Translations under genes and position numbers: made by a program
From: Mayamaea pseudoterrestris
Lineage: Eukaryota; Bacillariophyta; Bacillariophyceae; Sellaphorales; Sellaphoraceae
NCBI GenBank assembly: GCA_027923505.1
Contig: BROI01000004.1
Location: 1-64,000 of the forward strand
Direction of reading: 5' to 3'
DNA length: 64,000 bases
The notes under the pieces: generated by a model
The model's input: the letters and a program-made list of their open reading frames with translations, nothing else
Told to the model about the DNA's origin: nothing
Databases searched by the model: none
Shown: positions 1 through 57,690 of the stretch, piece after piece
How the letters are laid out: each line of letters opens with the position of its first letter
Numbering within the stretch: the stretch's first letter is position 1

Positions 1-3000
1 ACCATTTGAGACTTTGCACCTGTCAATGGCCATACCCTGGACATGTTTTGCCTGACTCATTGGGTATTTGGGTGGCCAGGGCATGGGGCGTTTGACAGGG
101 AAGAATCTGCAACTTGTGGTGTTGGCCATACCCACAGTGGAGGCCGTACCCATGGTGTCAGCCTCCAGGCAGTCCTTTTTGCACCATTTGAGACTATGCA
201 CCTGTCAATGGCATCCCCTGGACATGTTTTGCCTGACTCATTGGGTATTTGGGTGGCCAGGGCATGGGGCGTTTGACAGGGAAGAATCTGCAACTTGTGG
301 TGTTGGCCATACCCACAGTGGAGGCCGTACCCATGTTGTCAGCCTCCAGGCAGTCCTTTTTGCACCATTTGAGACTATGCACCTGTCAATGGCATACCCT
401 GGACATGTTTTGCCTGACTCATTGGGTATTTGGGTGGCCAGGGCATGGGGCGTTTGACAGGGAAGAATCTGCAACTTGTGGTGTTGGCCATACCCACAGT
501 GGAGGCCGTACCCATGTTGTCAGCCTCCAGGCAGTCCTTTTTGCACCATTTGAGACTATGCACCTGTCAATGGCATACCCTGGACATGTTTTGCCTGACT
601 CATTGGGTATTTGGGTGGCCAGGGCATGGGGCGTTTGACAGGGAAGAATCTGCAACTTGTGGTGTTGGCCATACCCACAGTGGAGGCCGTACCCATGGTG
701 TCAGCCTCCAGGCAGTCCTTTTTGCACCATTTGAGACTATGCACCTGTCAATGGCATACCCTGGACATGTTTTGCCTGACTCATTGGGTATTTGGGTGGC
801 CAGGGCATGGGGCGTTTGACAGGGAAGAATCTGCAACTTGTGGTGTTGGCCATACCCACAGTGGAGGCCGTACCCATGTTTTCAGCCTCCAGGCAGTCCT
901 TTCTGCACCATTTGAGACTCTGCACCTGTCAATGGCCTACCCTGGACATGTTTTGCCTGACTCATTGGGTATTTGGGTGGCCAGGGCATGGGGCGTTTGA
1001 CAGGGAAGAATCTGCAACTTGTGGTGTTGGCCATACCCACAGTGGAGGCCGTACCCATGGTGTCAGCCTCCAGGCAGTCCTTTTTGCACCATTTGAGACT
1101 ATGCACCTGTCAATGGCATACCCTGGACATGTTTTGCCTGACTCATTGGGTATTTGGGTGGCCAGGGCATGGGGCGTTTGACAGGGAAGAATCTGCAACT
1201 TGTGGTGTTGGCCATACCCACAGTGGAGGCCGTACCCATGGTTGTCAGCCTCCAGGCAGTCCTTTTTGCACCATTTGAGACTATGCACCTGTCAATGGCA
1301 TACCCTGGACATGTTTTGCCTGACTCATTGGGTATTTGGGTGGCCAGGGCATGGGGCGTTTGACAGGGAAGAATCTGCAACTTGTGGTGTTGGCCATACC
1401 CACAGTGGAGGCCGTACCCATGTTGTCAGCCTCCAGGCAGTCCTTTTTGCACCATTTGAGACTATGCACCTGTCAATGGCATCCCCTGGACATGTTTTGC
1501 CTGACTCATTGGGTATTTGGGTGGCCAGGGCATGGGGCGTTTGACAGGGAAGAATCTGCAACTTGTGGTGTTGGCCATACCCACAGTGGAGGCCGTACCC
1601 ATGTTGTCAGCCTCCAGGCAGTCCTTTTTGCACCATTTGAGACTATGCACCTGTCAATGGCATACCCTGGACATGTTTTGCCTGACTCATTGGGTATTTG
1701 GGTGGCCAGGGCATGGGGCGTTTGACAGGGAAGAATCTGCAACTTGTGGTGTTGGCCATACCCACAGTGGAGGCCGTACCCATGTTGTCAGCCTCCAGGC
1801 AGTCCTTTTTGCACCATTTGAGACTATGCACCTGTCAATGGCATACCCTGGACATGTTTTGCCTGACTCATTGGGTATTTGGGTGGCCAGGGCATGGGGC
1901 GTTTGACAGGGAAGAATCTGCAACTTGTGGTGTTGGCCATACCCACAGTGGAGGCCGTACCCATGTTGTCAGCCTCCAGGCAGTCCTTTTTGCACCATTT
2001 GAGACTCTGCACCTGTCAATGGCATCCCCTGGACATGTTTTGCCTGACTCATTGGGTATTTGGGTGGCCAGGGCATGGGGCGTTTGACAGGGAAGAATCT
2101 GCAACTTGTGGTGTTGGCCATACCCACAGTGGAGGCCGTACCCATGTTGTCAGCCTCCAGGCAGTCCTTTTTGCACCATTTGAGACTATGCACCTGTCAA
2201 TGGCATACCCTGGACATGTTTTGCCCTTTGATACTCATGGGTATTTTGGTGGCCAGGGCATGGGGCGTTTGACAGGGAAGAATCTGCAACTTGTGGTGTT
2301 GGCCATACCCACAGTGGAGGCCGTACCCATGGTGTCAGCCTCCAGGCAGTCCTTTTTGCACCATTTGAGACTATGCACCTGTCAATGGCATACCCTGGAC
2401 ATGTTTTGCCTGACTCATTGGGTATTTGGGTGGCCAGGGCATGGGGCGTTTGACAGGGAAGAATCTGCAACTTGTGGTGTTGGCCATACCCACAGTGGAG
2501 GCCGTACCCATGGTGTCAGCCTCCAGGCAGTCCTTTTTGCACCATTTGAGACTATGCACCTGTCAATGGCATACCCTGGACATGTTTTGCCTGACTCATT
2601 GGGTATTTGGGTGGCCAGGGCATGGGGCGTTTGACAGGGAAGAATCTGCAACTTGTGGTGTTGGCCATACCCACAGTGGAGGCCGTACCCATGTTTTCAG
2701 CCTCCAGGCAGTCCTTTTTGCACCATTTGAGACTATGCACCTGTCAATGGCATCCCCTGGACATGTTTTGCCTGACTCATTGGGTATTTGGGTGGCCAGG
2801 GCATGGGGCGTTTGACAGGGAAGAATCTGCAACTTGTGGTGTTGGCCATACCCACAGTGGAGGCCGTACCCATGTTGTCAGCCTCCAGGCAGTCCTTTTT
2901 GCACCATTTGAGACTATGCACCTGTCAATGGCATACCCTGGACATGTTTTGCCTGACTCATTGGGTATTTGGGTGGCCAGGGCATGGGGCGTTTGACAGG

Positions 3001-6000
3001 GAAGAATCTGCAACTTGTGGTGTTGGCCATACCCACAGTGGAGGCCGTACCCATGTTGTCAGCCTCCAGGCAGTCCTTTTTGCACCATTTGAGACTATGC
3101 ACCTGTCAATGGCATACCCTGGACATGTTTTGCTTGACTCATTGGGTATTTGGGTGGCCAGGGCATGGGGCGTTTGACAGGGAAGAATCTGCAACTTGTG
3201 GTGTTGGCCATACCCACAGTGGAGGCCGTACCCATGTTTTCAGCCTCCAGGCAGTCCTTTTTGCACCATTTGAGACTATGCACCTGTCAATGGCATACCC
3301 TGGACATGTTTTGCCTGACTCATTGGGTATTTGGGTGGCCAGGGCATGGGGCGTTTGACAGGGAAGAATCTGCAACTTGTGGTGTTGGCCATACCCACAG
3401 TGGAGGCCGTACCCATGTTGTCAGCCTCCAGGCAGTCCTTTTTGCACCATTTGAGACTATGCACCTGTCAATGGCATCCCCTGGACATGTTTTGCCTGAC
3501 TCATTGGGTATTTGGGTGGCCAGGGCATGGGGCGTTTGACAGGGAAGAATCTGCAACTTGTGGTGTTGGCCATACCCACAGTGGAGGCCGTACCCATGTT
3601 TTCAGCCTCCAGGCAGTCCTTTTTGCACCATTTGAGACTATGCACCTGTCAATGGCATCCCCTGGACATGTTTTGCCTGACTCATTGGGTATTTGGGTGG
3701 CCAGGGCATGGGGCGTTTGACAGGGAAGAATCTGCAACTTGTGGTGTTGGCCATACCCACAGTGGAGGCCGTACCCATGTTGTCAGCCTCCAGGCAGTCC
3801 TTTTTGCACCATTTGAGACTATGCACCTGTCAATGGCATACCCTGGACATGTTTTGCCTGACTCATTGGGTATTTGGGTGGCCAGGGCATGGGGCGTTTG
3901 ACAGGGAAGAATCTGCAACTTGTGGTGTTGGCCATACCCACAGTGGAGGCCGTACCCATGGTGTCAGCCTCCAGGCAGTCCTTTTTGCACCATTTGAGAC
4001 TATGCACCTGTCAATGGCATACCCTGGACATGTTTTGCCTGACTCATTGGGTATTTGGGTGGCCAGGGCATGGGGCGTTTGACAGGGAAGAATCTGCAAC
4101 TTGTGGTGTTGGCCATACCCACAGTGGAGGCCGTACCCATGTTTTCAGCCTCCAGGCAGTCCTTTTTGCACCATTTGAGACTATGCACCTGTCAATGGCA
4201 TACCCTGGACATGTTTTGCCTGACTCATTGGGTATTTGGGTGGCCAGGGCATGGGGCGTTTGACAGGGAAGAATCTGCAACTTGTGGTGTTGGCCATACC
4301 CACAGTGGAGGCCGTACCCATGTTGTCAGCCTCCAGGCAGTCCTTTTTGCACCATTTGAGACTATGCACCTGTCAATGGCATCCCCTGGACATGTTTTGC
4401 CTGACTCATTGGGTATTTGGGTGGCCAGGGCATGGGGCGTTTGACAGGGAAGAATCTGCAACTTGTGGTGTTGGCCATACCCACAGTGGAGGCCGTACCC
4501 ATGGTGTCAGCCTCCAGGCAGTCCTTTTTGCACCATTTGAGACTATGCACCTGTCAATGGCATACCCTGGACATGTTTTGCCACATGTTTTGCTTGACTC
4601 ATTGGGTATTTGGGTGGCCAGGGCATGGGGCGTTTGACAGGGAAGAATCTGCAACTTGTGGTGTTGGCCATACCCACAGTGGAGGCCGTACCCATGTTTT
4701 CAGCCTCCAGGCAGTCCTTTTTGCACCATTTGAGACTATGCACCTGTCAATGGCATACCCTGGACATGTTTTGCCTGACTCATTGGGTATTTGGGTGGCC
4801 AGGGCATGGGGCGTTTGACAGGGAAGAATCTGCAACTTGTGGTGTTGGCCATACCCACAGTGGAGGCCGTACCCATGTTGTCAGCCTCCAGGCAGTCCTT
4901 TTTGCACCATTTGAGACTATGCACCTGTCAATGGCATACCCTGGACATGTTTTGCCTGACTCATTGGGTATTTGGGTGGCCAGGGCATGGGGCGTTTGAC
5001 AGGGAAGAATCTGCAACTTGTGGTGTTGGCCATACCCACAGTGGAGGCCGTACCCATGGTGTCAGCCTCCAGGCAGTCCTTTTTGCACCATTTGAGACTA
5101 TGCACCTGTCAATGGCATACCCTGGACATGTTTTGCCTGACTCATTGGGTATTTGGGTGGCCAGGGCATGGGGCGTTTGACAGGGAAGAATCTGCAACTT
5201 GTGGTGTTGGCCATACCCACAGTGGAGGCCGTACCCATGTTTTCAGCCTCCAGGCAGTCCTTTTTGCACCATTTGAGACTATGCACCTGTCAATGGCATC
5301 CCCTGGACATGTTTTGCCTGACTCATTGGGTATTTGGGTGGCCAGGGCATGGGGCGTTTGACAGGGAAGAATCTGCAACTTGTGGTGTTGGCCATACCCA
5401 CAGTGGAGGCCGTACCCATGTTGTCAGCCTCCAGGCAGTCCTTTTTGCACCATTTGAGACTATGCACCTGTCAATGGCATACCCTGGACATGTTTTGCCT
5501 GACTCATTGGGTATTTGGGTGGCCAGGGCATGGGGCGTTTGACAGGGAAGAATCTGCAACTTGTGGTGTTGGCCATACCCACAGTGGAGGCCGTACCCAT
5601 GGTGTCAGCCTCCAGGCAGTCCTTTTTGCACCATTTGAGACTATGCACCTGTCAATGGCATCCCCTGGACATGTTTTGCCTGACTCATTGGGTATTTGGG
5701 TGGCCAGGGCATGGGGCGTTTGACAGGGAAGAATCTGCAACTTGTGGTGTTGGCCATACCCACAGTGGAGGCCGTACCCATGTTTTCAGCCTCCAGGCAG
5801 TCCTTTTTGCACCATTTGAGACTCTGCACCTGTCAATGGCATACCCTGGACATGTTTTGCCTGACTCATTGGGTATTTGGGTGGCCAGGGCATGGGGCGT
5901 TTGACAGGGAAGAATCTGCAACTTGTGGTGTTGGCCATACCCACAGTGGAGGCCGTACCCATGTTGTCAGCCTCCAGGCAGTCCTTTTTGCACCATTTGA

Positions 6001-9000
6001 GACTATGCACCTGTCAATGGCATACCCTGGACATGTTTTGCCTGACTCATTGGGTATTTGGGTGGCCAGGGCATGGGGCGTTTGACAGGGAAGAATCTGC
6101 AACTTGTGGTGTTGGCCATACCCACAGTGGAGGCCGTACCCATGGTGTCAGCCTCCAGGCAGTCCTTTTTGCACCATTTGAGACTATGCACCTGTCAATG
6201 GCATACCCTGGACATGTTTTGCCTGACTCATTGGGTATTTGGGTGGCCAGGGCATGGGGCGTTTGACATGGAAGAATCTGCAACTTGTGGTGTTGGCCAT
6301 ACCCACAGTGGAGGCCGTACCCATGTTTTCAGCCTCCAGGCAGTCCTTTTTGCACCATTTGAGACTCTGCACCTGTCAATGGCATCCCCTGGACATGTTT
6401 TGCCTGACTCATTGGGTATTTGGGTGGCCAGGGCATGGGGCGTTTGACAGGGATGAATCTGCAACTTGTGGTGTTGGCCATACCCACAGTGGAGGCCGTA
6501 CCCATGTTGTCAGCCTCCAGGCAGTCCTTTTTGCACCATTTGAGACTATGCACCTGTCAATGGCATACCCTGGACATGTTTTGCCTGACTCATTGGGTAT
6601 TTGGGTGGCCAGGGCATGGGGCGTTTGACAGGGAAGAATCTGCAACTTGTGGTGTTGGCCATACCCACAGTGGAGGCCGTACCCATGGTGTCAGCCTCCA
6701 GGCAGTCCTTTTTGCACCATTTGAGACTATGCACCTGTCAATGGCATACCCTGGACATGTTTTGCCTGACTCATTGGGTATTTGGGTGGCCAGGGCATGG
6801 GGCGTTTGACAGGGAAGAATCTGCAACTTGTGGTGTTGGCCATACCCACAGTGGAGGCCGTACCCATGTTTTCAGCCTCCAGGCAGTCCTTTTTGCACCA
6901 TTTGAGACTATGCACCTGTCAATGGCATACCCTGGACATGTTTTGCCTGACTCATTGGGTATTTGGGTGGCCAGGGCATGGGGCGTTTGACAGGGAAGAA
7001 TCTGCAACTTGTGGTGTTGGCCATACCCACAGTGGAGGCCGTACCCATGTTGTCAGCCTCCAGGCAGTCCTTTTTGCACCATTTGAGACTATGCACCTGT
7101 CAATGGCATCCCCTGGACATGTTTTGCCTGACTCATTGGGTATTTGGGTGGCCAGGGCATGGGGCGTTTGACAGGGAAGAATCTGCAACTTGTGGTGTTG
7201 GCCATACCCACAGTGGAGGCCGTACCCATGTTGTCAGCCTCCAGGCAGTCCTTTTTGCACCATTTGAGACTATGCACCTGTCAATGGCATACCCTGGACA
7301 TGTTTTGCCTGACTCATTGGGTATTTGGGTGGCCAGGGCATGGGGCGTTTGACAGGGAAGAATCTGCAACTTGTGGTGTTGGCCATACCCACAGTGGAGG
7401 CCGTACCCATGTTGTCAGCCTCCAGGCAGTCCTTTTTGCACCATTTGAGACTATGCACCTGTCAATGGCATCCCCTGGACATGTTTTGCCTGACTCATTG
7501 GGTATTTGGGTGGCCAGGGCATGGGGCGTTTGACAGGGAAGAATCTGCAACTTGTGGTGTTGGCCATACCCACAGTGGAGGCCGTACCCATGTTGTCAGC
7601 CTCCAGGCAGTCCTTTTTGCACCATTTGAGACTATGCACCTGTCAATGGCATACCCTGGACATGTTTTGCCCTGACTCATTGGGTATTTGGGTGGCCAGG
7701 GCATGGGGCGTTTGACAGGGAAGAATCTGCAACTTGTGGTGTTGGCCATACCCACAGTGGAGGCCGTACCCATGGTGTCAGCCTCCAGGCAGTCCTTTTT
7801 GCACCATTTGAGACTATGCACCTGTCAATGGCATACCCTGGACATGTTTTGCCTGACTCATTGGGTATTTGGGTGGCCAGGGCATGGGGCGTTTGACAGG
7901 GAAGAATCTGCAACTTGTGGTGTTGGCCATACCCACAGTGGAGGCCGTACCCATGTTTTCAGCCTCCAGGCAGTCCTTTTTGCACCATTTGAGACTCTGC
8001 ACCTGTCAATGGCATCCCCTGGACATGTTTTGCCTGACTCATTGGGTATTTGGGTGGCCAGGGCATGGGGCGTTTGACAGGGAAGAATCTGCAACTTGTG
8101 GTGTTGGCCATACCCACAGTGGAGGCCGTACCCATGTTGTCAGCCTCCAGGCAGTCCTTTTTGCACCATTTGAGACTATGCACCTGTCAATGGCATACCC
8201 TGGACATGTTTTGCCTGACTCATTGGGTATTTGGGTGGCCAGGGCATGGGGCGTTTGACAGGGAAGAATCTGCAACTTGTGGTGTTGGCCATACCCACAG
8301 TGGAGGCCGTACCCATGGTGTCAGCCTCCAGGCAGTCCTTTTTGCACCATTTGAGACTATGCACCTGTCAATGGCATACCCTGGACATGTTTTGCCTGAC
8401 TCATTGGGTATTTGGGTGGCCAGGGCATGGGGCGTTTGACAGGGAAGAATCTGCAACTTGTGGTGTTGGCCATACCCACAGTGGAGGCCGTACCCATGTT
8501 GTCAGCCTCCAGGCAGTCCTTTTTGCACCATTTGAGACTATGCACCTGTCAATGGCATCCCCTGGACATGTTTTGCCTGACTCATTGGGTATTTGGGTGG
8601 CCAGGGCATGGGGCGTTTGACAGGGAAGAATCTGCAACTTGTGGTGTTGGCCATACCCACAGTGGAGGCCGTACCCATGTTGTCAGCCTCCAGGCAGTCC
8701 TTTTTGCACCATTTGAGACTATGCACCTGTCAATGGCATACCCTGGACATGTTTTGCCTGACTCATTGGGTATTTGGGTGGCCAGGGCATGGGGCGTTTG
8801 ACAGGGAAGAATCTGCAACTTGTGGTGTTGGCCATACCCACAGTGGAGGCCGTACCCATGGTGTCAGCCTCCAGGCAGTCCTTTTTGCACCATTTGAGAC
8901 TATGCACCTGTCAATGGCATACCCTGGACATGTTTTGCCTGACTCATTGGGTATTTGGGTGGCCAGGGCATGGGGCGTTTGACAGGGAAGAATCTGCAAC

Positions 9001-11448
9001 TTGTGGTGTTGGCCATACCCACAGTGGAGGCCGTACCCATGTTTTCAGCCTCCAGGCAGTCCTTTTTGCACCATTTGAGACTCTGCACCTGTCAATGGCA
9101 TCCCCTGGACATGTTTTGCCTGACTCATTGGGTATTTGGGTGGCCAGGGCATGGGGCGTTTGACAGGGAAGAATCTGCAACTTGTGGTGTTGGCCATACC
9201 CACAGTGGAGGCCGTACCCATGTTGTCAGCCTCCAGGCAGTCCTTTTTGCACCATTTGAGACTATGCACCTGTCAATGGCATCCCCTGGACATGTTTTGC
9301 CTGACTCATTGGGTATTTGGGTGGCCAGGGCATGGGGCGTTTGACAGGGAAGAATCTGCAACTTGTGGTGTTGGCCATACCCACAGTGGAGGCCGTACCC
9401 ATGGTGTCAGCCTCCAGGCAGTCCTTTTTGCACCATTTGAGACTATGCACCTGTCAATGGCATACCCTGGACATGTTTTGCCTGACTCATTGGGTATTTG
9501 GGTGGCCAGGGCATGGGGCGTTTGACAGGGAAGAATCTGCAACTTGTGGTGTTGGCCATACCCACAGTGGAGGCCGTACCCATGTTTTCAGCCTCCAGGC
9601 AGTCCTTTTTGCACCATTTGAGACTCTGCACCTGTCAATGGCATACCCTGGACATGTTTTGCCTGACTCATTGGGTATTTGGGTGGCCAGGGCATGGGGC
9701 GTTTGACAGGGAAGAATCTGCAACTTGTGGTGTTGGCCATACCCACAGTGGAGGCCGTACCCATGTTGTCAGCCTCCAGGCAGTCCTTTTTGCACCATTT
9801 GAGACTATGCACCTGTCAATGGCATCCCCTGGACATGTTTTGCCTGACTCATTGGGTATTTGGGTGGCCAGGGCATGGGGCGTTTGACAGGGAAGAATCT
9901 GCAACTTGTGGTGTTGGCCATACCCACAGTGGAGGCCGTACCCATGGTGTCAGCCTCCAGGCAGTCCTTTTTGCACCATTTGAGACTATGCACCTGTCAA
10001 TGGCATACCCTGGACATGTTTTGCCTGACTCATTGGGTATTTGGGTGGCCAGGGCATGGGGCGTTTGACAGGGAAGAATCTGCAACTTGTGGTGTTGGCC
10101 ATACCCACAGTGGAGGCCGTACCCATGTTTTCAGCCTCCAGGCAGTCCTTTTTGCACCATTTGAGACTCTGCACCTGTCAATGGCATCCCCTGGACATGT
10201 TTTGCCTGACTCATTGGGTATTTGGGTGGCCAGGGCATGGGGCGTTTGACAGGGAAGAATCTGCAACTTGTGGTGTTGGCCATACCCACAGTGGAGGCCG
10301 TACCCATGTTGTCAGCCTCCAGGCAGTCCTTTTGCACCATTTGAGACTATGCACCTGTCAATGGCATACCCTGGACATGTTTTGCCTGACTCATTGGGTA
10401 TTTGGGTGGCCAGGGCATGGGGCGTTTGACAGGGAAGAATCTGCAACTTGTGGTGTTGGCCATACCCACAGTGGAGGCCGTACCCATGGTGTCAGCCTCC
10501 AGGCAGTCCTTTTTGCACCATTTGAGACTATGCACCTGTCAATGGCATACCCTGGACATGTTTTGCCTGACTCATTGGGTATTTGGGTGGCCAGGGCATG
10601 GGGCGTTTGACAGGGAAGAATCTGCAACTTGTGGTGTTGGCCATACCCACAGTGGAGGCCGTACCCATGGTGTCAGCCTCCAGGCAGTCCTTTTTGCACC
10701 ATTTGAGACTATGCACCTGTCAATGGCATACCCTGGACATGTTTTGCCTGACTCATTGGGTATTTGGGTGGCCAGGGCATGGGGCGTTTGACAGGGAAGA
10801 ATCTGCAACTTGTGGTGTTGGCCATACCCACAGTGGAGGCCGTACCCATGTTGTCAGCCTCCAGGCAGTCCTTTTTGCACCATTTGAGACTCTGCACCTG
10901 TCAATGGCATCCCCTGGACATGTTTTGCCTGACTCATTGGGTATTTGGGTGGCCAGGGCATGGGGCGTTTGACAGGGAAGAATCTGCAACTTGTGGTGTT
11001 GGCCATACCCACAGTGGAGGCCGTACCCATGTTGTCAGCCTCCAGGCAGTCCTTTTTGCACCATTTGAGACTATGCACCTGTCAATGGCCTACCCTGGAC
11101 ATGTTTTGCCTGACTCATTGGGTATTTGGGTGGCCAGGGCATGGGGCGTTTGACAGGGAAGAATCTGCAACTTGTGGTGTTGGCCATACCCACAGTGGAG
11201 GCCGTACCCATGGTGTCAGCCTCCAGGCAGTCCTTTTTGCACCATTTGAGACTATGCACCTGTCAATGGCATCCCCTGGACATGTTTTGCCTGACTCATT
11301 GGGTATTTGGGTGGCCAGGGCATGGGGCGTTTGACAGGGAAGAATCTGCAACTTGTGGTGTTGGCCATACCCACAGTGGAGGCCGTACCCATGGTGTCAG
11401 CCTCCAGGCAGTCCTTTTTGCACCATTTGAGACTATGCACCTGTCAAT
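1..11448. repeat. 181-bp satellite array, 63 full units plus a partial unit
   Basis: The same 181-bp unit follows itself head to tail from the first base to 11448, where it breaks off after about 27 bases of unit 64. Units differ at only a few sites. The main ones are the bases after CCCATG (GTGTC, TTGTC or TTTTC), GACTATGC versus GACTCTGC, and GGCATACCC versus GGCATCCCC. Length departs from 181 in six places: +1 near 30, +1 near 1240, +4 near 2228, +12 near 4583, +1 near 7671 and -1 near 10330. The unit is not a multiple of three, has no long open frame of its own, and carries open stretches on both strands only because stop codons are rare in it. These 60-130 codon frames should not be called genes. 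Size and uniformity suit a centromeric or subtelomeric satellite. Which of these it is cannot be told here, and the array continues beyond the left edge. Confidence 0.97.
3955..7060. repeat. 543-bp trimeric higher-order repeat inside the satellite
   Basis: Scoring each unit by the bases after CCCATG gives three types: G (GTGTC), F (TTTTC) and V (TTGTC). From about 3960 to 7050 the order is G-F-V six times without a break. The same trimer returns once at 7773-8135 and three times at 8859-10307. Later F units also tend to carry GACTCTGC, so linked variants travel together. Elsewhere the order is irregular, with runs of V at 1421-2145 and 7048-7591. This is what unequal exchange of three-unit blocks produces. 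Confidence 0.85.
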
Positions 11449-12500
11449 TGCAACGACGAAAGCAGCGACAGGGTTTGACCAGCAAGATTCGAAGCCTCAC
11501 CACCAACATGTTGAACAAGAATTCGGGTTCCGCGGTAGTCAAGCAGCAGCGCGATCGGTTCGCCGAAGCCAACTTTGATACCGCTCCGCCGTCCATGATG
11601 CGGGCATCTTCGGGGCGAGACGCATACGGCGAAGGCGGCGGCGGTAGTGGCCACTACAGTCACTACGGTGACGCGCCGTACGGTCGACGGTTCAGCACGT
11701 CGCAAACGTCGTCGCAGGATATCATGCCACCGCCACCGCGGCGACAAGCGCGACGGGGCGATTTGGAAGAAACGTATGCAAGCAGCAAGAGTTTCAGTGG
11801 GTCTTTCAATTTACATAATAATAGTAATGATGCATGGTATGAAGACAATGGTGAATCGGATGAGCTTGCTGAACATGCGCAGCACGTTGCTTCTGTGGAT
11901 GAGGACGAGGACGACGGCGGCATGCTGGCTATTTTGCAGAGGCAGCTGCTGGCGAAAGCGGCGGTCGAAGCGCAGCAGCGGCATGAACAACAAGCAACAC
12001 TACACGCGTATCCAACGATGAGGCCCATGGATCCAAATGGGCAAGCAGGCATTTCCATGGGAATGGACGCGATTGGAGCAATGCGAAATCTACATTTAGG
12101 ACCGCCGCAAGTTCAGCCCCAACCATACTTTGAAACATACCATGCCGTCATGCCGAGTGCACCGATTGCATCAATAGCAGCGCAGTTGGATAGAATGCAA
12201 GTGGATGCAGCGGCCATGCAGCCGACGCCATTGCCACCTTCATTCAATGGCGGCGCCCAAGCTCAAACGTACGCGCAGCCATCGCAAATACAGCCGGTAG
12301 GCTCGTTCGAAGTTCCCACATTCAAGTCACGCGCGAGCGGCCGCTTCTCCAGTATAGGTGAGCTAGAAGACGGGCAACTTGAGACTCTTTTGACCGGATT
12401 GGATGTAAGTTTATCCGATTTGAACTTTGACGATGCGCAGCAACAGCAGCAGCAACAACAGCAACAACACCACTACCAACAACGGCACGCGCAAGTATAG
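11448..12500 (+). CDS. Q-rich acidic protein, 5' end replaced by satellite
   Basis: The frame is open from inside the satellite through the boundary at 11448 to a TAA-free run ending in TAG at 12498-12500. The first in-frame ATG outside the repeat is at 11508, and one in the last repeat unit lies at 11391. The unique part encodes about 350 residues. It starts with a basic stretch (QRRKQRQGLTSKIRSL), followed by Gly/Ser-rich and PPPPRR segments. An acidic patch (VDEDEDDGG) comes next, then Gln/Met/Pro-rich sequence, a hydrophobic-acidic motif (LDVSLSDLNFDD) and a terminal poly-Gln. I recognise no domain. The composition resembles a transcriptional regulator, and the LDVSLSDL segment looks like an activation motif, but that is inference. 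The basic start cut by the array suggests a missing amino-terminal domain. The gene may instead start at 11508 and be whole. Confidence 0.6.
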   Translation: MQRRKQRQGLTSKIRSLTTNMLNKNSGSAVVKQQRDRFAEANFDTAPPSMMRASSGRDAYGEGGGGSGHYSHYGDAPYGRRFSTSQTSSQDIMPPPPRRQARRGDLEETYASSKSFSGSFNLHNNSNDAWYEDNGESDELAEHAQHVASVDEDEDDGGMLAILQRQLLAKAAVEAQQRHEQQATLHAYPTMRPMDPNGQAGISMGMDAIGAMRNLHLGPPQVQPQPYFETYHAVMPSAPIASIAAQLDRMQVDAAAMQPTPLPPSFNGGAQAQTYAQPSQIQPVGSFEVPTFKSRASGRFSSIGELEDGQLETLLTGLDVSLSDLNFDDAQQQQQQQQQQHHYQQRHAQV

Positions 12501-24097: not shown

Positions 24098-25393
24098 ATG
24101 TCTAATTGGAAGAATGAACATTCGTTTGGAACGCCGCCTCCAGCTCCAATAGGCAGCATGTGCGCTTTATTTGGTGCGGCGCCGGCTCCTCCCCTCTTTG
24201 GCGAAACATCTGCAGCTCCGCACAGTTTTGGCGGGTTTGGAGGAGGCCATTGATTCTCGGCGTCATCTGGAGGATTTGGATTCCCGTCGGCGACGTCTGG
24301 AGCATTTGGAGCGCCGGCTCCAGCTCCAAGTGGCAGCTTTTTTTGTACAACGCCAGCTCCAAGCAGCTTATTTGGTGCGGCGCCAGCTCCTTCACTCTTT
24401 GGCGAAACATCCGCAGCTCCGCACAGCTTTGGCGGGTTTGGAGGAGACCATGGATTCTCGACGACCTCTGGAGGATTTGGAGCGCCGCTGGCGACTTCTG
24501 GAGGATTTGGGTTTGAAATGCAGCCTTTTCTCTCGGCTTTTGGAGCGCCGTTGGCGACATCTGGAGGATTTGGTTTTGGAACGCAGCCTGGTTTCTCGGC
24601 TTTTGGAGCGCCGTCGGCGACATCTGGAGGATTTGGGTTTGGAACGCAGCCTGGTACGTCGCTAAATTGGATGGGCGGATTTTCCGGGGCTACGGCAGCT
24701 TTTGGAGCGTTGCAGCAGCCGCAGCCACACATACCTTTCATTGGACGTAAGAAAGATCCAGCTCACCGCTTTGACCTGCCTCGCTCGCCTTTTCCTTTCG
24801 CGACAGCTCCCGCTTCGCATGAGTCAGCCGGATTTGGAACCGCGCCGTCCTTTGGTTTTCCGCCGGCCGCCGCAACTGGCTTTGCGCCACCTGCTTTTGG
24901 ATCGAATAGCTTTTCTTTCGCTTCAATTCAAGCTGCAGCTGCAGCTGCCTTTCGAGCCCCCACTTGCCGCAACAATTCAGTCGTCCCAACGTCAAAGACG
25001 GGCGGCAGCAACTCGGTCCTTGTCGGACATCTTGCGCAGGAAATTGTTGATCGCATCAACAAGCTCGAGTACAATGACTGGAAGGAGAAGGTCTTTGGCT
25101 ACTTTAGCCGCAAGTCGATCCAGGCGCAGTCGGATTCGAACATGATGGATGAAGACTTTGGAGACAAGTTGCTCGCTCTTCTGAAGCATTTGGAAGTGCT
25201 TGCCAAGATCTCCGTCTTGAAGCTGGTGGTGTGGAAGGCCAAGTGTCGTTTGCACTCGAGCGACGAAAACGCCGACCCGCTTGGCGCCGTCATGTGGTAC
25301 AGTAAGGGATGGAAAAAAGTCAAGCAGCATTACGTTGACGACGCGGCGATTGAAACGGTTGCGAAACTCATTCGGCCATGGCTCGGGGAGTAA
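24098..25393 (+). CDS. FG/GFGF-rich protein, paralogue 1, with an in-frame TGA
   Basis: ATG at 24098, same frame to the TAA at 25391, apart from one TGA at 24251-24253. Before and after it the frame encodes Phe-Gly repeats (ALFGAAPAP, SFGGFGG, GGFGFGTQPG) typical of nucleoporin-like unstructured sequence. The last 130 residues are a charged helical domain (about 25015-25390) with LLKHLEVLAK, LKLVVWKAKCRL and KGWKKVKQ, conserved in the next gene. I do not recognise that domain. A 93-bp internal repeat (about 24168-24260 and 24382-24474) shows that the TGA stands where the other copy has GGA. Other genes here use TGA as a stop, so this is a real interruption, a sequencing error or readthrough. 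Nuclear-pore work is only a guess from FG content. Confidence 0.6.
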
Positions 25394-25983
25394 GCGAGCG
25401 ACAAGAGTAATTACATCAATGAAACATGAAAGCGACATGAGTGTCGGGGTTTGACAGCAACAGATTACATCAATGAAACATGAAAGCGACATGAGTGTCG
25501 GGGTTTGACAGCAACAGAAAACAAGAGTTTTCGAGTAGAGTACAGGATTCTTGCGACGGCGATCCAATAATAGTACTAACAGTAAACTAACATACTACTT
25601 ACGCAATACTCTATGGTCTATCGTGGATACTTCAGAGTGCGTGGCTGATATCTTGGCAATTTACAGAAGTCACCAAAACAGTAAGTCAACAAAGAAGCTG
25701 TTAACATAGTTGACACAGATGACCTGTACGCTCGTTCATTTGCCAAATCCCGTGGCAAGCTGCGATATCAAGAGGCGTGTTGCCTCTCGCAACCCAGTTT
25801 CGCTCCCGCGGGGAATGTCAAACTCGCTCCGACTTCTGTACCCGGTACGACACACAATCCGGCAACTACAGCTCGCGCACAACGGAAATCGCCATCGTGG
25901 AACTGGTTCAGCTTTTTGGCAGCAGCCGCGCAGCGTTGCCGTGGATTTCATCGCACCACTCTTGTCAATTAACTGCCTTGATC
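25394..25983. other. Intergenic between the two FG-rich paralogues
   Basis: This 590-bp spacer holds the 3' region of paralogue 1, including a 54-bp tandem duplication, and the promoter of paralogue 2. An open frame runs through about 25780-25983 into the next gene, but it begins at a TTG. I see no separate gene. Confidence 0.6.
25410..25517. repeat. 54-bp perfect tandem duplication in a 3' region
   Basis: Positions 25410-25463 are repeated at 25464-25517 without a visible mismatch (ATTACATCAATGAAACATG start). The lack of divergence suggests recent origin. It lies just after the stop codon of paralogue 1, probably in its 3' untranslated region. Confidence 0.9.
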
Positions 25984-26853
25984 ATGTTTCGATATCCTCC
26001 GAACAACGACAATTCTAATTTCGGAGCGCCAGCTGCTCGCGGTGGCGGATTATTTGGACCGCCGCCAGATGCTCCTGATGGCGGTGCGCCGCAAGGTGGT
26101 GCCTTTGGTGCGCCAGTTCCAGCGGGTCTGATGCCGCCCGTAGACGGGTTTGAAGGAGGCTTTGGGTTTGCAGCTGCAAGCGTTGGTGTCGAAGATCCTC
26201 CAGCTGCTCGTCCACGTTTCGGCTTTGGAGCGCCATCTGCGGCTGCAGATGGAGGCGGCCTCCCTTTGCTCAATGCCTACCATGAACGTCAACAGCAAGG
26301 AGTGCTGCCGCCGAGCAGTTTTTTATTTCGTAATCCGCCTCGCAATACTCAGGCGCCAGTCGCTACGTATCCGTGTTTTCGTTTTGACTCGCAGTTGCAT
26401 ATACAAGAGCCTAGTACCGGTAGTTTCTGGCCGGCAGCAGTGTTTAAAAACTCGGCGGATGACCGTCCCATCCTTGCTGGCTTCATTGGAGAGGATATGA
26501 TCGACCGCATTGAGAAGCTCGAACACAATGCGTGGAAGGAGCAAGTTTATGGCTACTTGTGCCGCAAATTCATCCACTTGCAGATGCCTAATAGTCAAGA
26601 CGCCTTGGACGAAGTTGGAGACCAAGTTCGTTCGCTTTTGAAGCATTTGGAAGTGCTCGCCAAGACTGTCCTTTTGAAGCTTGTCGTCTGGAAATCAAAA
26701 TGCCGCTTGCATGAGGTCGAGGAGAATACCAATCCATTTGGTGTCATGTTGTGGTCGGGCAAGGGATGGAAGAAGGTCAAGCAGGAATATGTCAATCATG
26801 CGGCCATTGATACGATTGCCGAGGTGATGCAGCCGTGGCTTGAGGATTTGTAA
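25984..26853 (+). CDS. FG-rich protein, paralogue 2
   Basis: ATG at 25984, 289 residues, intronless and uninterrupted. The first 100 residues are Gly/Ala/Pro-rich with scattered FG and GLFG-like elements (NFGAPAARGGGLFGPP, GGFGFAAA). From about residue 155 comes the helical domain shared with the gene upstream (ILAGFIGEDMIDRIEKLEHN, LLKHLEVLAKTVLLKLVVWK, KGWKKVKQEYV), roughly 55% identical by eye. The FG part has diverged much more than the carboxyl domain. That domain is therefore the constrained part. Function unknown. The FG content permits, but does not prove, a nuclear-pore or condensate role. Confidence 0.75.
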   Translation: MFRYPPNNDNSNFGAPAARGGGLFGPPPDAPDGGAPQGGAFGAPVPAGLMPPVDGFEGGFGFAAASVGVEDPPAARPRFGFGAPSAAADGGGLPLLNAYHERQQQGVLPPSSFLFRNPPRNTQAPVATYPCFRFDSQLHIQEPSTGSFWPAAVFKNSADDRPILAGFIGEDMIDRIEKLEHNAWKEQVYGYLCRKFIHLQMPNSQDALDEVGDQVRSLLKHLEVLAKTVLLKLVVWKSKCRLHEVEENTNPFGVMLWSGKGWKKVKQEYVNHAAIDTIAEVMQPWLEDL

Positions 26854-27306: not shown

Positions 27307-30300
27307 ATGGAATTACAATCTACATTAAACCTTTACAAGTGGAAGCGAAAGCGGCGGTATCTCGTTAATTGCGCGTGGAGAAGTTTGGGAATCTGGCAAA
27401 CCATCATTGCCGTCATGTTTCTTCTCGGCATGTCGCAACGAAGCACCTTCTTTGTCAAAGGGTTTATGATTAAAAGCAACTTTAATCAAAGACATGAACG
27501 AGCATCAGTGCTCCTGACGGCTGTCGCCGCGAGAAAGGCGTCCAAGAAAGCCACGAAACCCACAATAGTAGCATCGGACACTACCTCCTTGCCCTATCGA
27601 CTCGTCATTGTCGAGTCACCCTCCAAGTGCAAAACAATCGACAAGATTCTGAACGAATATGTGCAAACAAACAATCTTGCATTCAGCTATCAAGTGACAT
27701 CATGCTACGGCCATGTGAGGGATCTCAGCAAGGAAAAAATTCCACCGAGCGACTCTGCAGCCTTTCCCTATACTGTTCCTGGCATTGACCTTTCCCATCA
27801 TCAATTTAAACCACTCTACCAAATCATTGAAAAGAAGAAACATATTGTCAAAGAGCTGCGTCAGCTTGCGAGCAAGGCGGAAAAGGTATTGCTCGCGACG
27901 GATCCGGATCGTGAAGGTGAAGCGATTGCATGGCACTTGAATGAAATATTACAGACTGATAGTATTGATGATGCTGGACGCTTACCGACTGAGCGCGTCT
28001 CATTCACCGAAATTACTCCATCTGCTGTTTTGGACGCAGTCATACCGACGCACGAGAATGATGCAGCTAGTTCTGCCGAACATAGTAACCTCCGGCGAAT
28101 CAATCCACACTTGGTCACGGCCCAGGAAACGCGGCGATTACTGGATCGACTCGTTGGATTTACACTGAGTCCGATTCTTTGGCGCAAGATTGCGCCCGGC
28201 TTGTCGGCGGGTCGCGTGCAGTCGGTGGGCATGGCGCTCGTGGTAAATCGCGAGCGAGAGCGATTGCGGTTTGAAGCAACTGAGTATTGGGACTTGGAAG
28301 CGAAATTATTGGTGGCGACAGAGTCGCATAATGAGCAGAGTAATTCAATCAAGGCAAAGCTAGTGTCTGTGAATGGACAATATGTGGCGTCGGAAGGAAA
28401 AGACTTTACTGCCCAAGGAAGACAACTTGTCTCGGCCGAGAAACTGCACTTGAACGTGGATGAGGCGCACTCGTTGGCAAACAAACTATCCAACGCCACT
28501 TGGGTCATCAAGGAGGTTACATCGAAACAGGTGCGTATGCAGCCTCCGAAACCATATCGAACCAGCACGCTGCAGCAGGATGCGAATCGCCGGCTATCGC
28601 TCAGTGTTGACCAGACAATGCGAGTGGCGCAACAGCTCTACGAAGCCGGGTACATTAGCTACATGCGGACAGACTCGAGCACCTTGTCAAGTCAAGCAGA
28701 GGAAGCCATCGAGTTGTCAGTGGAAGAAGTGTTTGGCTCTACTGAATACGATGCATCGATACGTGGCAAGGGCATTGGACATGTCAAATCGTCGCAAAAT
28801 GTCAGCTTTGCGCAAGAGGCCCATGAGGCTATCCGCCCAGCCGTCCAACCAGGAGGTATCTTGGCAGCGCCAGAACTTTTGATGGGTCAAGTCGACGATG
28901 TTGCATTAAAATTGTATCGCATGATTTACCAGCGCACATTGGCCAGTCGCATGCAGCCTTTGTTAACGCTTCGCACCCGAATTGCCATTGAAACTACTGA
29001 ATATGGGGGTGTCACTGCGGAGTTTCGTGCAACTGGTAGCGTCATTGTCAAACCTGGTTATTCAGCAGCTTATGCAGCAAGTAAAATAGACGAGGAGGCG
29101 GAGGGCGATAAACAGCAGCTGCCTCATCTAAAAGAAGGTCAAGTCATGACGTTAGAAACTGTTTTGCCGATTGACCACGCCACACAACCTCCACCACGAT
29201 TCAATGAAGCCAGCTTTGTCAAGGAGCTTGAAGCTCTTGGCGTGGGTCGTCCAAGCACTTATGCGAGCACCGTAAAGACTCTGCGCGAGCGAGCCTACGT
29301 GGGAACCCCTCTTAAAGAAAATAGCCGCCGAATCAGTTTCAGAAAGGAACCTTCGGGCATGTCTAAAGTAGCTCAACGAGCTGCCGGTGGCGAGGATTTT
29401 ACAGGAGCAGCTCAAGGTCCACTGGTGCCATCTCTTTCCGCGTTTGTCGTCAGTGACCTTTTAGAGAAGCACTGTTCAATTATCATTGATTCCGGGTTCA
29501 CTGCAAATATGGAAGAGCAACTGGATTGGATCGCATCGGGCGACAAACCGAGCGAGTACAGTGTCCAGTACCTGAATGACTTTTATACTGGCGACGAAGG
29601 TTTGGCAGCACGTGTGAAACGGATTGATGAGGCGGTAGATGCGGACGACGCGCGCCGTGTTGATCTCCCAGCTCTTGAACCTACCGATTTTGCATCGTCA
29701 GGCGACGACATTGCACTGTGTGTCGGGCCTTGGGGGCCTTTCGTCAAGCTTGTTGACAATAACGACAGCAGCAATGCAACGACAGTGTCATTACCGCCAG
29801 GAATGGCTGCTGACCTCACTTTAATATCCCCTGAGGCTTTGCGATCTATTGTCGCCACCAAGCTGGCTGGAGGATTAGTGCTCGGCCAGCATCCATCGGA
29901 CGGACGCAACATTCGGTTAAAGACGGGTCGATACGGAGCTTTCTTACAATGGGGTGAGGATAACGAAGAGGGCACGACAACCCACTCTTTGCCAAAAAGT
30001 ATAGCAAGCATGCGTACCTTTGATTCGTTCACAGATGACGTTGAAGCTGATAGCGAGGAGAACGCTGGATTGTTTGCTCAGCGACTTGGGGTCACTTACG
30101 ATCATGCGGTCGGCTACGTGGAGCTTCCACGTACTGTTTGCTTCTTGAATGATAAACCCATCGTCGCGGCAATCGGCCCGTATGGTCCCTATTTGAAGTA
30201 CAACAATTCTTATACAAGCTTAAAAGCCACAGACGGGGACGTACTCAATGTTGATCCAGCTACAGCGGAACAGTTGGTCATCGAACGAATAGTAAACGGT

Positions 30301-31044
30301 AAACCTAAGGGCGCTATAGCTGATCTAGGTGAAAAGGATGGAAGCCCAGTAACAGTAAAGAGAGGGCGGTTTGGCAATTACTTGAATTGGAAGCGAGTCA
30401 ATGCCAAGCTACCTTCAGAATACCAGGACGAGCCATCGAGCATGCCACTTGAAGAAGCGTGGGTGCTGATACAGGCTGCTTCGGGTGGATCCAAAGGTAA
30501 GAAAAGCACGTCAAAGATAGCAAAGTCTTCTCCAGAACTCCCGCCAGCTCCAAAGCGCCCAATGTCGGCATATTTACACTTTTGCGCCGCGAAGCGCCCG
30601 GAAATTAAAAGCACTGTGTCTTCGCTGGGAGATGCTGCAAAGGCGCTGGCAGCTCTTTGGGCCGCAGCTTCGGAGACCGAGCGCGAAACCTACATTAAAT
30701 TAGCAGCTGCGGGAAAGGTCGAGTACGAAAAAACAAAGGAAAACTGGCAGAAGGAGTGTCAAGAGATTCTTGACAAGTCAAAAGCTGCCAAGCCAACTGG
30801 GAAACAGCGAAAGATAGCTGTCATCAAGAAAGCTCCGCCTTTGCTTTCGAAAAAGGCGAAATCAGCCTACCTATTCTTCTGCGCAGAGAAGCGCCCCCAA
30901 GTTGCAGCGCAATTCTCGGGGTTGGGCGCCGTGACCAAAGAACTCGCTCGTCAATGGGCAGAAACTTCCGATCGAAGCAAATACGAAGCGCTCGCACAAG
31001 TGGCCAAGGAGTCACATGCCACGGAGAATGTGTTGCAAACATGA
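27307..31044 (+). CDS. Bacterial-type DNA topoisomerase I (type IA) with two HMG boxes
   Basis: ATG at 27307, 1245 residues, intronless. The first 60 residues are basic and contain a hydrophobic stretch (IWQTIIAVMFLLG), then Ser/Arg/Lys-rich sequence, as in an organelle-targeting leader. From about residue 97 comes a TopA core: Toprim with VIVESPSKCKTI and ATDPDREGEAIAWHL, then GLSAGRVQSVGMALV. The active-site tyrosine is in ISYMRTDS (about Y452), followed by AHEAIRP, VGRPSTYAST and MEEQLDWIASG. After it come TopA carboxyl repeats (GPWGPFVKL, GRYGAFLQWG, GPYGPYLKY). Two HMG-like boxes end the protein (about 1082-1150, KRPMSAYLHFCAAKRP; about 1181-1240, KKAKSAYLFFCAEKRP). TopA relaxes negative supercoils. 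In a eukaryote this form most likely serves plastid or mitochondrial DNA. The fusion to HMG boxes suggests nucleoid binding, which is inference. Confidence 0.92.
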   Translation: MELQSTLNLYKWKRKRRYLVNCAWRSLGIWQTIIAVMFLLGMSQRSTFFVKGFMIKSNFNQRHERASVLLTAVAARKASKKATKPTIVASDTTSLPYRLVIVESPSKCKTIDKILNEYVQTNNLAFSYQVTSCYGHVRDLSKEKIPPSDSAAFPYTVPGIDLSHHQFKPLYQIIEKKKHIVKELRQLASKAEKVLLATDPDREGEAIAWHLNEILQTDSIDDAGRLPTERVSFTEITPSAVLDAVIPTHENDAASSAEHSNLRRINPHLVTAQETRRLLDRLVGFTLSPILWRKIAPGLSAGRVQSVGMALVVNRERERLRFEATEYWDLEAKLLVATESHNEQSNSIKAKLVSVNGQYVASEGKDFTAQGRQLVSAEKLHLNVDEAHSLANKLSNATWVIKEVTSKQVRMQPPKPYRTSTLQQDANRRLSLSVDQTMRVAQQLYEAGYISYMRTDSSTLSSQAEEAIELSVEEVFGSTEYDASIRGKGIGHVKSSQNVSFAQEAHEAIRPAVQPGGILAAPELLMGQVDDVALKLYRMIYQRTLASRMQPLLTLRTRIAIETTEYGGVTAEFRATGSVIVKPGYSAAYAASKIDEEAEGDKQQLPHLKEGQVMTLETVLPIDHATQPPPRFNEASFVKELEALGVGRPSTYASTVKTLRERAYVGTPLKENSRRISFRKEPSGMSKVAQRAAGGEDFTGAAQGPLVPSLSAFVVSDLLEKHCSIIIDSGFTANMEEQLDWIASGDKPSEYSVQYLNDFYTGDEGLAARVKRIDEAVDADDARRVDLPALEPTDFASSGDDIALCVGPWGPFVKLVDNNDSSNATTVSLPPGMAADLTLISPEALRSIVATKLAGGLVLGQHPSDGRNIRLKTGRYGAFLQWGEDNEEGTTTHSLPKSIASMRTFDSFTDDVEADSEENAGLFAQRLGVTYDHAVGYVELPRTVCFLNDKPIVAAIGPYGPYLKYNNSYTSLKATDGDVLNVDPATAEQLVIERIVNGKPKGAIADLGEKDGSPVTVKRGRFGNYLNWKRVNAKLPSEYQDEPSSMPLEEAWVLIQAASGGSKGKKSTSKIAKSSPELPPAPKRPMSAYLHFCAAKRPEIKSTVSSLGDAAKALAALWAAASETERETYIKLAAAGKVEYEKTKENWQKECQEILDKSKAAKPTGKQRKIAVIKKAPPLLSKKAKSAYLFFCAEKRPQVAAQFSGLGAVTKELARQWAETSDRSKYEALAQVAKESHATENVLQT

Positions 31045-39436: not shown

Positions 39437-41585
39437 CGCTTTCAATGGACAGAGGTCCATCAACAAGCATTCGAACAGATGAAGGCAATCGTTGCCGAGG
39501 ATGCCCTCGTGCGGTATCCTGATCACAATTTACCGTTCGATATTGAAACCGATTCATCCGACTATCAACTTGGAGCAGTAATTAAACAGAACGGCTATCC
39601 AGTAGCCTACTATTCCCGCAAGCTAACGCCAGCGCAGCGGAATTATACAACGATAGAGAAGGAAATACTCAGTGTCGTAGAGACGTTGAAGACGTTTCGC
39701 TCAATGTTGCTCGGAGAACCATTCGCGTCCATACAGACCATAAAAATCTCACGCATGAGTTAACGCCATACCAAACACAACGAGTCCTACGATGGCGCCT
39801 ATATTTAGAAGAATATGGGCCAACGTTTCATTACAAAAAGGGCGGCGAAAACGTAATAGCAGACGCGTTGTCTCGAACGCCAACTCAACGTCTTTCACCA
39901 GTCGGGGAGGAAGACAGTGATGCCGGCCCGATGAGCAGTGATGACCGCTCAACAAGTATCAGTATAATGGATGATCCGGATCTAGTTGATTGCTTTCTAT
40001 TACACCCGCAATTCGACGACGCAAGCGACGAGTATCCCCTCGATTACAACGTGATTCGAACGCATCAAGACCACGACGGTCCATTAATAGCTGCAGCAAA
40101 CGCAAACGATATACCATCGATCCAATGGAAGGATCTCGGGGATGTACAGCTTGTTGTTTACGTTCCACCTCAGCGGCCGCAAGAATGGAGGATTTGTATA
40201 CCAACCGATATGTTGGAGAAGCTCGTTCAATGGTACCATATAATCTTGGCACACGCGGGTATGAAAGGACTCGAAGCGACAATGAAACGACATTTCTACA
40301 GCACGAAGCTGACGAAGACGATTGAAACCATCGTCAACAAATGCGACGCTTGCCAACGTTATAAAGCAGGCGGACAACCGAAATACGCAGAGTTACCAGC
40401 CAGGGATATTAGAGAAGCTCCTTGGTATGAAGTACAAGTTGATTTGATCGGCCCGTGGTCGTTCAAGGCGAACGGCGTTGAGTATTCGTTCCAAGCGCTC
40501 ACGATGATTGATCCAGTAACAAACTTCGTCGAGCTTGCGCGTTGCGATAACAAGCAAGCACAACACGTAGCCTTGTTGTTCGAGAACAATTGGCTAGCGC
40601 GCTATCCGAAACCATTGCGTGTCATACATGATCGAGGAACCGAGTTCAAAGGGGCATTTCGGCAGATGCTCTTGCAAAACGGAATTGCAGAACACATTTC
40701 CTCAACGAAGAATCCAACGGCAAACGCCATTTGCGAAAGAGTCCATTTAACGATAGCAAACGTATTGCGAACGATGCTGCACGCTCACTTTCCTGATGGA
40801 TTGACGGAAAACGAGCTCATCGATCAATGCCTCGCGACGGCAATGCAAGCAACCAGAGCAGCAGCAAGTAAAGCTCTTGATGGTTGGTCGCCTGGAGCAC
40901 TTGTCTTTCAAAGAGATATGATTCTCGATATACCGCTAATCGCGGATATAATGGCCATTACAAACAAACGTGCACGTGCGATAAACGAAACGCTTTTAAA
41001 AGCAAATCGGCAAAGGGTGACTTACGATTACAGAGTCGGCGACAACGTATTACTAAAGGTAAACGATCCAGACAAGCTCGATGATCGATGGATTGGACCA
41101 TATACGATAACAAGAGTCCATACAAATGGGACTGTAACCATTCGAAAGACGCCAATGGTAACGGATCGAGTCAATGTGCGCAAAATCAAACCATACCGAC
41201 AATAAAACACGGGTTTTCGTCAGCTTTTCCCAAGGCGTTCGATACGCTTTCAATAGCCTACGTATAAAGGCAGCTGACATGCATAACTACATGCGTCAAT
41301 AACAGTAATAAAAAGGACGACGAGCGTCCATCGTCTTCAAGATGCAAGCATCTTCTCCAGTCGGGGAGGGTGAAAGATCATGACGCAACGGTACTCGTTT
41401 AGCTAGGAGTAAAGGAGCCGACTGCCGGACCAATGAGTCTTAGGAGAGACATCGAGGCCCGCCGATATTCTACCGAACGGTCCCGACGGTCGAGCCCATG
41501 GTATACATCATAATTGCACGTTTTGCATATGACTTCTACGTCTCGTGACTAGGTGTAGCACTTTGCGAACGTCAGTCGTTGATGA
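39437..41585 (+). mobile_element. Ty3/gypsy LTR-retrotransposon remnant (fossil)
   Basis: A broken remnant of the downstream part of a Ty3/gypsy pol region: RNase H sequence first, then a zinc-binding HHCC region and the integrase core and tail, ending near 41205. The gag, protease and most of the reverse transcriptase parts are absent. A purine-rich tract near 41357-41376 may mark the start of a 3' LTR, but I see no matching LTR at the other end. The right limit is set by the start of the PP5 flank repeat and is approximate. The still recognisable coding sequence suggests moderate to low age. Confidence 0.85.
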
Positions 41586-50912: not shown

Positions 50913-51226
50913 ATGGTGCCTGGCTGGGCGAGTTTGGTCGAACGACGCATTTTGTTGCCATTTGGAAGGCTGCCTTGCTTGACTTTGAGTACGACAAGAT
51001 CGATTCAGCGGTACTTCTTGACGACTTTTGCTTTCCATTGATTCGCGGCTTATTCAGTACATTGTTTTGGCCGCTGGGCTGTCTTGGAGTTATTCACTTG
51101 TGCGCTCCGACGACGTCTGCCTTGTTCCGAGCGCTCATCGTTCGCTGTTCAATCCTTCTTACGATTGCACACAAAACGAGCCCGTTTTGGCTGGAGCCGG
51201 CAAAGAAGCTGTTGAAGGCTGCCCAC
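50575..51226 (+). repeat. 326-bp tandem duplication of the Doa10 3' coding end
   Basis: Copy 1 is 50575-50900 and copy 2 is 50901-51226. They differ at 18 positions. In the Doa10 frame 14 of these are silent, and four change residues (V/F, G/S, W/L, A/T). Because 326 is not a multiple of three, copy 2 and the original gene end that follows it are out of frame with the gene body. Confidence 0.92.
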
Positions 51227-51286
51227 AAGTCTGCGCGTGACGATTTGTTTTTGCTGGGAGAACGATTGATGACTTACGGGGGATAA
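50901..51286 (+). pseudogene. Displaced 3' end of the Doa10 gene
   Basis: Copy 2 of the duplication continues into unique sequence encoding the expected end of Doa10, stopping with TAA at 51284-51286. The frame is open backwards through copy 1 but does not match the gene frame there. No AGGT-type site that could splice out exactly one copy is visible. The mostly silent differences from copy 1 mean it has been, or still is, translated somewhere. If the tandem arrangement is an assembly artefact, this is simply the true 3' end of the gene. Confidence 0.7.
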
Positions 51287-57687: not shown

Positions 57688-57690
57688 ATG
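57465..57690 (+). repeat. Degenerate 102-105 bp direct repeats up to a start codon
   Basis: The block GGAGAAACCATGAAA at 57467-57481 recurs as GGAGAAACATTGAAA at 57574-57588 and GGAGAAACCATGAAA at 57679-57693. Between these, CGTGTTTCGCGCAAGTGGTC at 57521 recurs as CGTATTTCGTACAAGTGGTC at 57623. The last copy contains the start codon of the transposase-like gene. Confidence 0.8.

Follow-up and report, generated by a model that had tools for sequence, protein, structure and literature searches.

An incipient trimeric higher-order repeat in a CpG-depleted 181-base satellite array next to eukaryotic nuclear genes

Introduction

Positions 1 to 64,000 of contig BROI01000004.1 (this whole stretch of 64,000 bases is called the window below) begin with an array of a 181-base satellite. 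A first-pass annotation, made from the letters alone, had sorted its units into types G, F and V, had reported that these follow one another in strict order six times, once and three times, with irregular order outside these blocks, and had seen in this a trimeric higher-order repeat in a protist satellite. The question raised by the locus is whether three units have here become a new and larger unit and, if so, by what route. Our answer is that the array is an incipient higher-order repeat, real but subtle. Papers that bear on it are cited by their PubMed Central numbers.

The satellite array

Tandem Repeats Finder (TRF), run on the window, reported a period of 181 bases with 63.2 copies and 98% matches at 1-11452, and cutting at the fixed word ACCATTTGAGACT gave 63 full units, which bears out the 181-base satellite of 63 units in the first-pass annotation. 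Of these units 57 are 181 bases long, three have 182 bases, and 180, 185 and 193 bases occur once each; a partial 64th unit agrees with the consensus over 27 bases and ends at 11448. The left edge of the window falls within the array, the first base being already satellite, and at the right edge decayed units are absent. No additional copies of the unit were found elsewhere in the window. As a long head-to-tail array of a non-coding unit, with stops in every frame, the element has the structure of a satellite (no strand is assigned to it or to its parts):

1..11448: satellite array of 63 full units (consensus 181 bases) plus a 27-base partial unit (TRF, unit cutting, right-edge recount)

The units differ very little. 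Substitutions occur at nine sites (in the 57 units of 181 bases), the mean pairwise difference at these sites is 1.70 per 181 bases and the mean pairwise identity 99.1%; there are 20 distinct unit sequences, and 12 of the 63 units are identical to the consensus. Recurrent variants in the 63 units are found at sites 14 (C in 9), 31 (C in 2), 33 (C in 20), 154 (G in 20) and 156 (T in 14). None of these five is a transition, the change being always A/C or G/T. Single-base insertions or deletions are present in units 1, 7, 43 and 57, and near unit position 51 there is a rewritten patch in unit 13 (from 2175; window 2175-2359) and a 12-base tandem insertion in unit 26 (from 4532; window 4532-4724).

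A three-unit order in units 22-57

Types G, F and V are haplotypes at unit sites 154 and 156, two bases apart. Over the 63 units they read GVVGFGVVVVVVGGFVVFVFV, GFV six times, VVV, GFV, GVV, GFV three times and GGVVGG. The sequence G-F-V thus occurs 11 times, six times in units 22-39, once in units 43-45 and three times in units 49-57, exactly where the first-pass annotation had placed it, and once more in units 14-16, out of register with the remaining ten. Because units 20-21 already read F-V, the longest strict run reaches 20 units, the maximum in 3000 shuffles being 11. At a lag of three units the types match in 38 of 60 comparisons versus a shuffle mean of 21.1; 38 matches were attained in 1 of 400,000 shuffles, and the same z at the best lag among 1-12 in 8 of 400,000. 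Matches are also elevated at lags 6, 9 and 12, and when neighbour preferences were kept in a first-order Markov null, p was 0.014, 0.006, 0.003 and 0.025 at lags 3, 6, 9 and 12, respectively. By shuffles and Markov null alike the order of the multimer is fixed beyond chance, as in a higher-order repeat.

A single G-F-V register holds at 33 of the 36 places in units 22-57; it is broken at units 40, 41 and 47, each of which is a V. Outside this block the fit is 9 of 21 (units 1-21) and 2 of 6 (units 58-63), and here the order is irregular as described; between the three reported blocks it is not, since the same register persists through the interruptions. It is thus preferable to take the three blocks as a single one with interruptions. 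The evidence for this shared register is no more than suggestive, because the two later blocks would agree in phase with the first by chance in about one case in nine. The parts of the array are:

1..3807: units 1-21, irregular and with no lag-3 signal, including the out-of-register G-F-V of units 14-16 and F-V at units 20-21 (type order, lag test)
3808..10335: units 22-57, trimeric higher-order repeat at an incipient stage, one register shared by 33 of the 36 units (register fit)
3808..7077: units 22-39, strict G-F-V six times (type order)
7078..7620: units 40-42, V-V-V, an interruption that keeps the register (type order, register fit)
7621..8164: units 43-45, one G-F-V (type order)
8165..8707: units 46-48, G-V-V, one misfit (type order, register fit)
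8708..10335: units 49-57, strict G-F-V three times (type order)
10336..11421: units 58-63, G-G-V-V-G-G, 2 of 6 in register (type order, register fit)

In units 22-57 the identity at matching places is 99.51% between one trimer and the next, versus 98.78% between neighbouring units; the multimers are therefore more alike than adjacent monomers, a gain that comes mostly from sites 154 and 156. When all nine sites are used, units at lags 1 and 2 are less alike than expected by chance (z = −3.25 and −2.78) and those at lags 3 and 6 more alike (z = 4.75 and 4.44). Units 1-21 alone, also tested at all nine sites, give no lag-3 signal (p = 0.51).

How the trimer may have spread

We propose, with a probability of about 0.72, that this nuclear satellite array is young and highly homogenised, and that a segment of three units (G-F-V, 543 bases) spread through it as a block not long ago. 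Recent homogenisation fits the low divergence of the monomers, the 12 consensus units and the right edge without decay. Observed are the array itself, the non-random trimeric order in units 22-57 and the excess of trimer identity over neighbour identity. From these we infer that sister arrays underwent unequal exchange (or slippage), with a preference for pairing between the best-matching partners. Once a G-F-V trimer was present, three-unit register shifts would match better than shifts by one or two units and would be favoured, and by such shifts the trimer would spread; the V units at the three misfit places probably came in by later conversion or replacement. A sequence-specific function of the trimer is not needed.

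Two simulations bear on this route. In the first, in which blocks were exchanged blind to identity and whose diversity was not matched to that of the array (mean 2.4-17.4), the observed z without similar likeness at shorter lags was reached in just 1 of 750 runs. In the second, a clean higher-order repeat arose in 0 of 180 runs with identity-blind exchange and in 124 of 540 with identity-dependent exchange, 28 of the latter 124 being trimeric; judged by its z at lags 1, 2, 3 and 6, the array would count as clean in this simulation. The simulations make the identity-dependent route plausible, not proven, because the simulated diversity exceeds the observed one.

Several points weigh against the proposal. 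The simulations are crude and their outcome depends on the settings: 416 of the 540 identity-dependent runs ended without a clean higher-order repeat, these runs were more diverse (medians 2.6-7.3) than the array (1.70), and in the first simulation the observed z at some lag k and at 2k was reached in 305 of 750 runs, then together with likeness at shorter lags. The order is carried by two linked sites, 154 and 156. When these are left out, units 22-57 show 0.70 differences at lag 3 versus 0.85 after shuffling (p = 0.08), with p = 0.06 at lag 6; for all 63 units lag 3 is not significant (p = 0.17), and lags 6 and 9 give p = 0.03 and 0.04 (uncorrected). The C at site 33 (20 of 63 units) is nearly free of the register (4 of 12 G slots, 1 of 12 F slots and 7 of 12 V slots, p = 0.06), which is unexpected under wholesale copying of trimers without later conversion, recurrent mutation or error. 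The C at site 14 is confined to the V slot within units 22-57 (6 of 12 versus 0 of 24, Fisher p = 0.0005); it lies on V units in 8 of 9 cases, however, and is for this reason not independent of the types that define the register. Among the 15 V units of the block it occurs in 6 of 12 at the third slot versus 0 of 3 elsewhere, which is no evidence.

Finally, TRF reported no 543-base period for the whole array, for units 22-57 or for units 1-21 (periods up to 2000), only 181. The array is thus not of the kind picked out in PMC4053949, whose excerpt asks that TRF report a multimer exceeding the monomer in identity and score; the rule served detection in a single survey and does not define a higher-order repeat. 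We call the repeat incipient because of its two-site basis, the non-significant other sites and the missing 543-base TRF period. Of the trimeric higher-order structure in the first-pass annotation, the non-random order stands; it is incipient, told by two sites and better taken as one interrupted register than as three blocks.

CpG depletion of the unit

A new observation here is that the unit, whose G+C content is 53%, is strongly depleted of CpG. The array has a CpG observed/expected ratio of 0.16, compared with a mean of 1.12 and a minimum of 0.34 in 872 windows of 181 bases outside it; no 1-kb window outside the array falls below 0.88. The unit contains two CpG where about 14 would be expected at the rate of the flank (Poisson p = 8e-5, post hoc and for one independent sequence). 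CA/TG is raised in the unit (1.77 versus 1.19, z = 3.1), in line with deamination of methylated CpG. CC/GG is also raised (1.35 versus 0.79, z = 3.7), which is not explained by such deamination. Since both residual CpG (unit positions 88 and 144) are intact in 63 of 63 units, the loss of CpG would be older than the present array. The integrase open reading frame (ORF) further right in the window (see below) is not depleted (1.45). In the diatom Phaeodactylum tricornutum most transposable elements are highly methylated, according to the excerpt of PMC3145265, and if the source organism is such an organism, methylation of its repeats is conceivable.

Neighbouring genes

The visible edge of the array borders genes, the first ATG of the adjoining ORF lying 59 bases to the right of it:

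11508..12500, + strand: ORF counted from the first ATG, without a Pfam match; its frame is open upstream into the array (ORF list, Pfam)

The array may have truncated the 5' end of this gene, but the coding scores point neither way. The 20 codons before the first ATG score 4.5 bits, as does the median genuine coding piece; a different frame, however, gives 4.8, and about 6.0 is attained by 5% of 516 stop-free intergenic pieces. Further right follow, by Pfam, SBDS-like, P450, Brr2-like, topoisomerase I with HMG boxes, CPSF-A-region and TPR-phosphatase genes, and then GAA1, RINGv, ribonucleotide reductase small chain, Ocnus, NDUS4 and CXC-domain genes. All of this is a eukaryotic nuclear gene set, and the Brr2-like helicase, GAA1, NDUS4 and SBDS among them are compatible with the label of a protist satellite. 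Among the ORFs sent to Pfam there are also mobile-element genes, an integrase (39868-41205) and a DDE endonuclease (57637-58998).

Some features of these genes may be recorded in their own right. A bacterial-type topoisomerase I and two HMG boxes are found in a single ORF (27307-31044). Two adjacent ORFs without Pfam match (24518-26853) have C-terminal halves that are similar by eye and FG-rich N-terminal parts, and a 63-base repeat (2.9 copies, 24476-24655) lies within an ORF. A 326-base tandem repeat of two copies with 94% matches (50575-51227) begins inside the 3' end of the RINGv ORF, and the N-terminus of the ribonucleotide reductase small chain (51716-52954) resembles, by eye, a signal or targeting peptide.

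Alternative explanations

The array could be part of a centromere, and its trimer could reflect a turnover of centromeric chromatin like that of primates and plants. Centromere function is a guess, and we consider this explanation unlikely. The unit is near nucleosome length, as the first-pass annotation had pointed out, and this gains slight support from a weak periodicity of A/T dinucleotides of 10.65 bases (p = 0.005, position permutations). A CENP-B-box-like motif is absent from the window, which is weak evidence, the motif being one of mammals. In animals and plants, candidate centromere satellites often have a higher-order arrangement (76 of the 171 species that had Sanger data, in the excerpt of PMC4053949), and PpSat1 of the oomycete Phytophthora parasitica is its authors' candidate for a centromeric satellite (PMC7290008, excerpt). 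All this is circumstantial, and against it stand the unit's G+C content of 53% and the ORF that starts within 59 bases of the array in a gene-rich stretch. Most described stramenopile centromeres are of other kinds, as far as the excerpts go: transposon-rich in Phytophthora sojae and short and A+T-rich in Phaeodactylum tricornutum (PMC7082073), enriched in Copia-like elements in further oomycetes (PMC11139960), and marked by long terminal repeat elements in Ectocarpus, where satellites lie at subtelomeres (PMC11541908); in two Chlorella genomes, too, centromeres are without tandem satellites (PMC11005252).

It is quite improbable that the order, or part of the variation, is a product of assembly or polishing. 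The units with single-base insertions or deletions, the nearly random variation of site 33 relative to the register, the restriction of all five recurrent variant sites to A/C or G/T and the invisibility of the trimer to TRF could all be so understood. A simple looped assembly path is excluded, however, because a loop would yield identical trimers, and 11 of the 12 trimers in the register are distinct; nor can the order arise from independent errors. The data leave room for error or polishing effects at site 33, in the units with insertions or deletions and at the five recurrent sites.

A very improbable explanation is that the array is foreign to the contig, a chimeric join, e.g. with DNA of another organism, which would account for its CpG-poor composition. 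The contrast in CpG with the flank windows would agree with this, and so would the dinucleotide distance between array and flank of 0.336, a value reached in 4 of 1164 flank windows and in none of the 226 that are free of ORFs, and the abrupt edge of the array in a continuously open frame. A single 181-base sequence is a small sample, however, and four flank windows deviate as strongly; the coding signal at the edge (4.5 bits) is exceeded in another frame. Satellites often differ from genes in composition. Relatives of the unit were not found in non-eukaryotic collections, neither by exact pattern (two patterns each) in viral and prokaryote contigs nor by blastn at 1e-5 in plasmids and phages.

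That the trimer is retained because three units restore the reading frame (181 is a multiple of three plus one, and 543 a multiple of three) is almost certainly wrong, since stops occur every few units in all frames, 63-64 per forward frame and 80-84 per reverse frame, and three conceptual translations had no Pfam match above the cut-off. With all six frames interrupted by stops, a coding array is ruled out altogether; with E up to 1, the same three translations had one sub-threshold match, Mpo1-like (E = 0.031, 14.8 bits, cut-off 24).

Other candidates were rejected as well. An RNA gene is not indicated: at gathering scores nothing in the window matched Rfam, and nothing in 1-1088 did so up to E = 5; tRNA genes were not found in the window. 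The unit contains inverted repeats and folds no better than its dinucleotide shuffles (DNA z = 0.28, other rotation 0.60; RNA z = 0.42). Among the telomere repeats tried, no motif occurs in two copies within the window.

Comparison with known systems and significance

The trimeric order is a known kind of pattern in animal and plant satellites and is here a new case. With the alpha-satellite of primates the array shares a monomer of near nucleosome length and blocks of several monomers that are amplified together and resemble each other more than neighbours do. The two differ in degree: in alpha-satellite, monomers of the same block have about 70% identity and blocks up to 97-100% (PMC8122249, excerpt), versus 98.8% and 99.5% here. 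Short higher-order repeats, in which two or three satellite monomers form the larger unit, are widespread among animals and plants in the survey cited above (PMC4053949), which required TRF to report the multimer, whereas in this array it reports the monomer only; trimers occur also in a satellite of the beetle Chrysolina carnifex, as the excerpt of PMC8122249 has it.

Among stramenopiles, satellites have been described in oomycetes. PpSat1 and PpSat2 of Phytophthora parasitica form, like the present satellite and to judge by their description, long head-to-tail arrays with variation at few sites. The excerpt of PMC7290008 reports for PpSat1 mutated repeats towards the array ends and for PpSat2 no particular hierarchical organisation; neither "higher-order" nor "higher order" occurs in the text of that paper. 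Higher-order repeats seem to be little described in stramenopile satellites: the excerpts consulted from open-licence papers, PMC11541908 among them, report none.

It would be a long shot to see here the moment at which a higher-order repeat arises, its three members distinguished by only two sites, in a CpG-depleted satellite of a protist whose 64 kb are CpG-rich elsewhere. Should this family make up the centromeres, it would provide a satellite-type centromere in a lineage whose described ones are mostly transposon-rich or short and A+T-rich, and also a direct view of how higher-order repeats begin. The significance of the early-stage repeat and of the CpG depletion does not depend on centromere function. 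Through its depletion the satellite would be a sign that repeats of the host were once methylated at cytosines. The best-known higher-order repeats are those of satellites that are old and have diverged strongly; the members of the trimer described here, about two bases apart, show the first step, and units 22-57 and units 1-21 offer within one array a built-in control for testing the effects of exchange.

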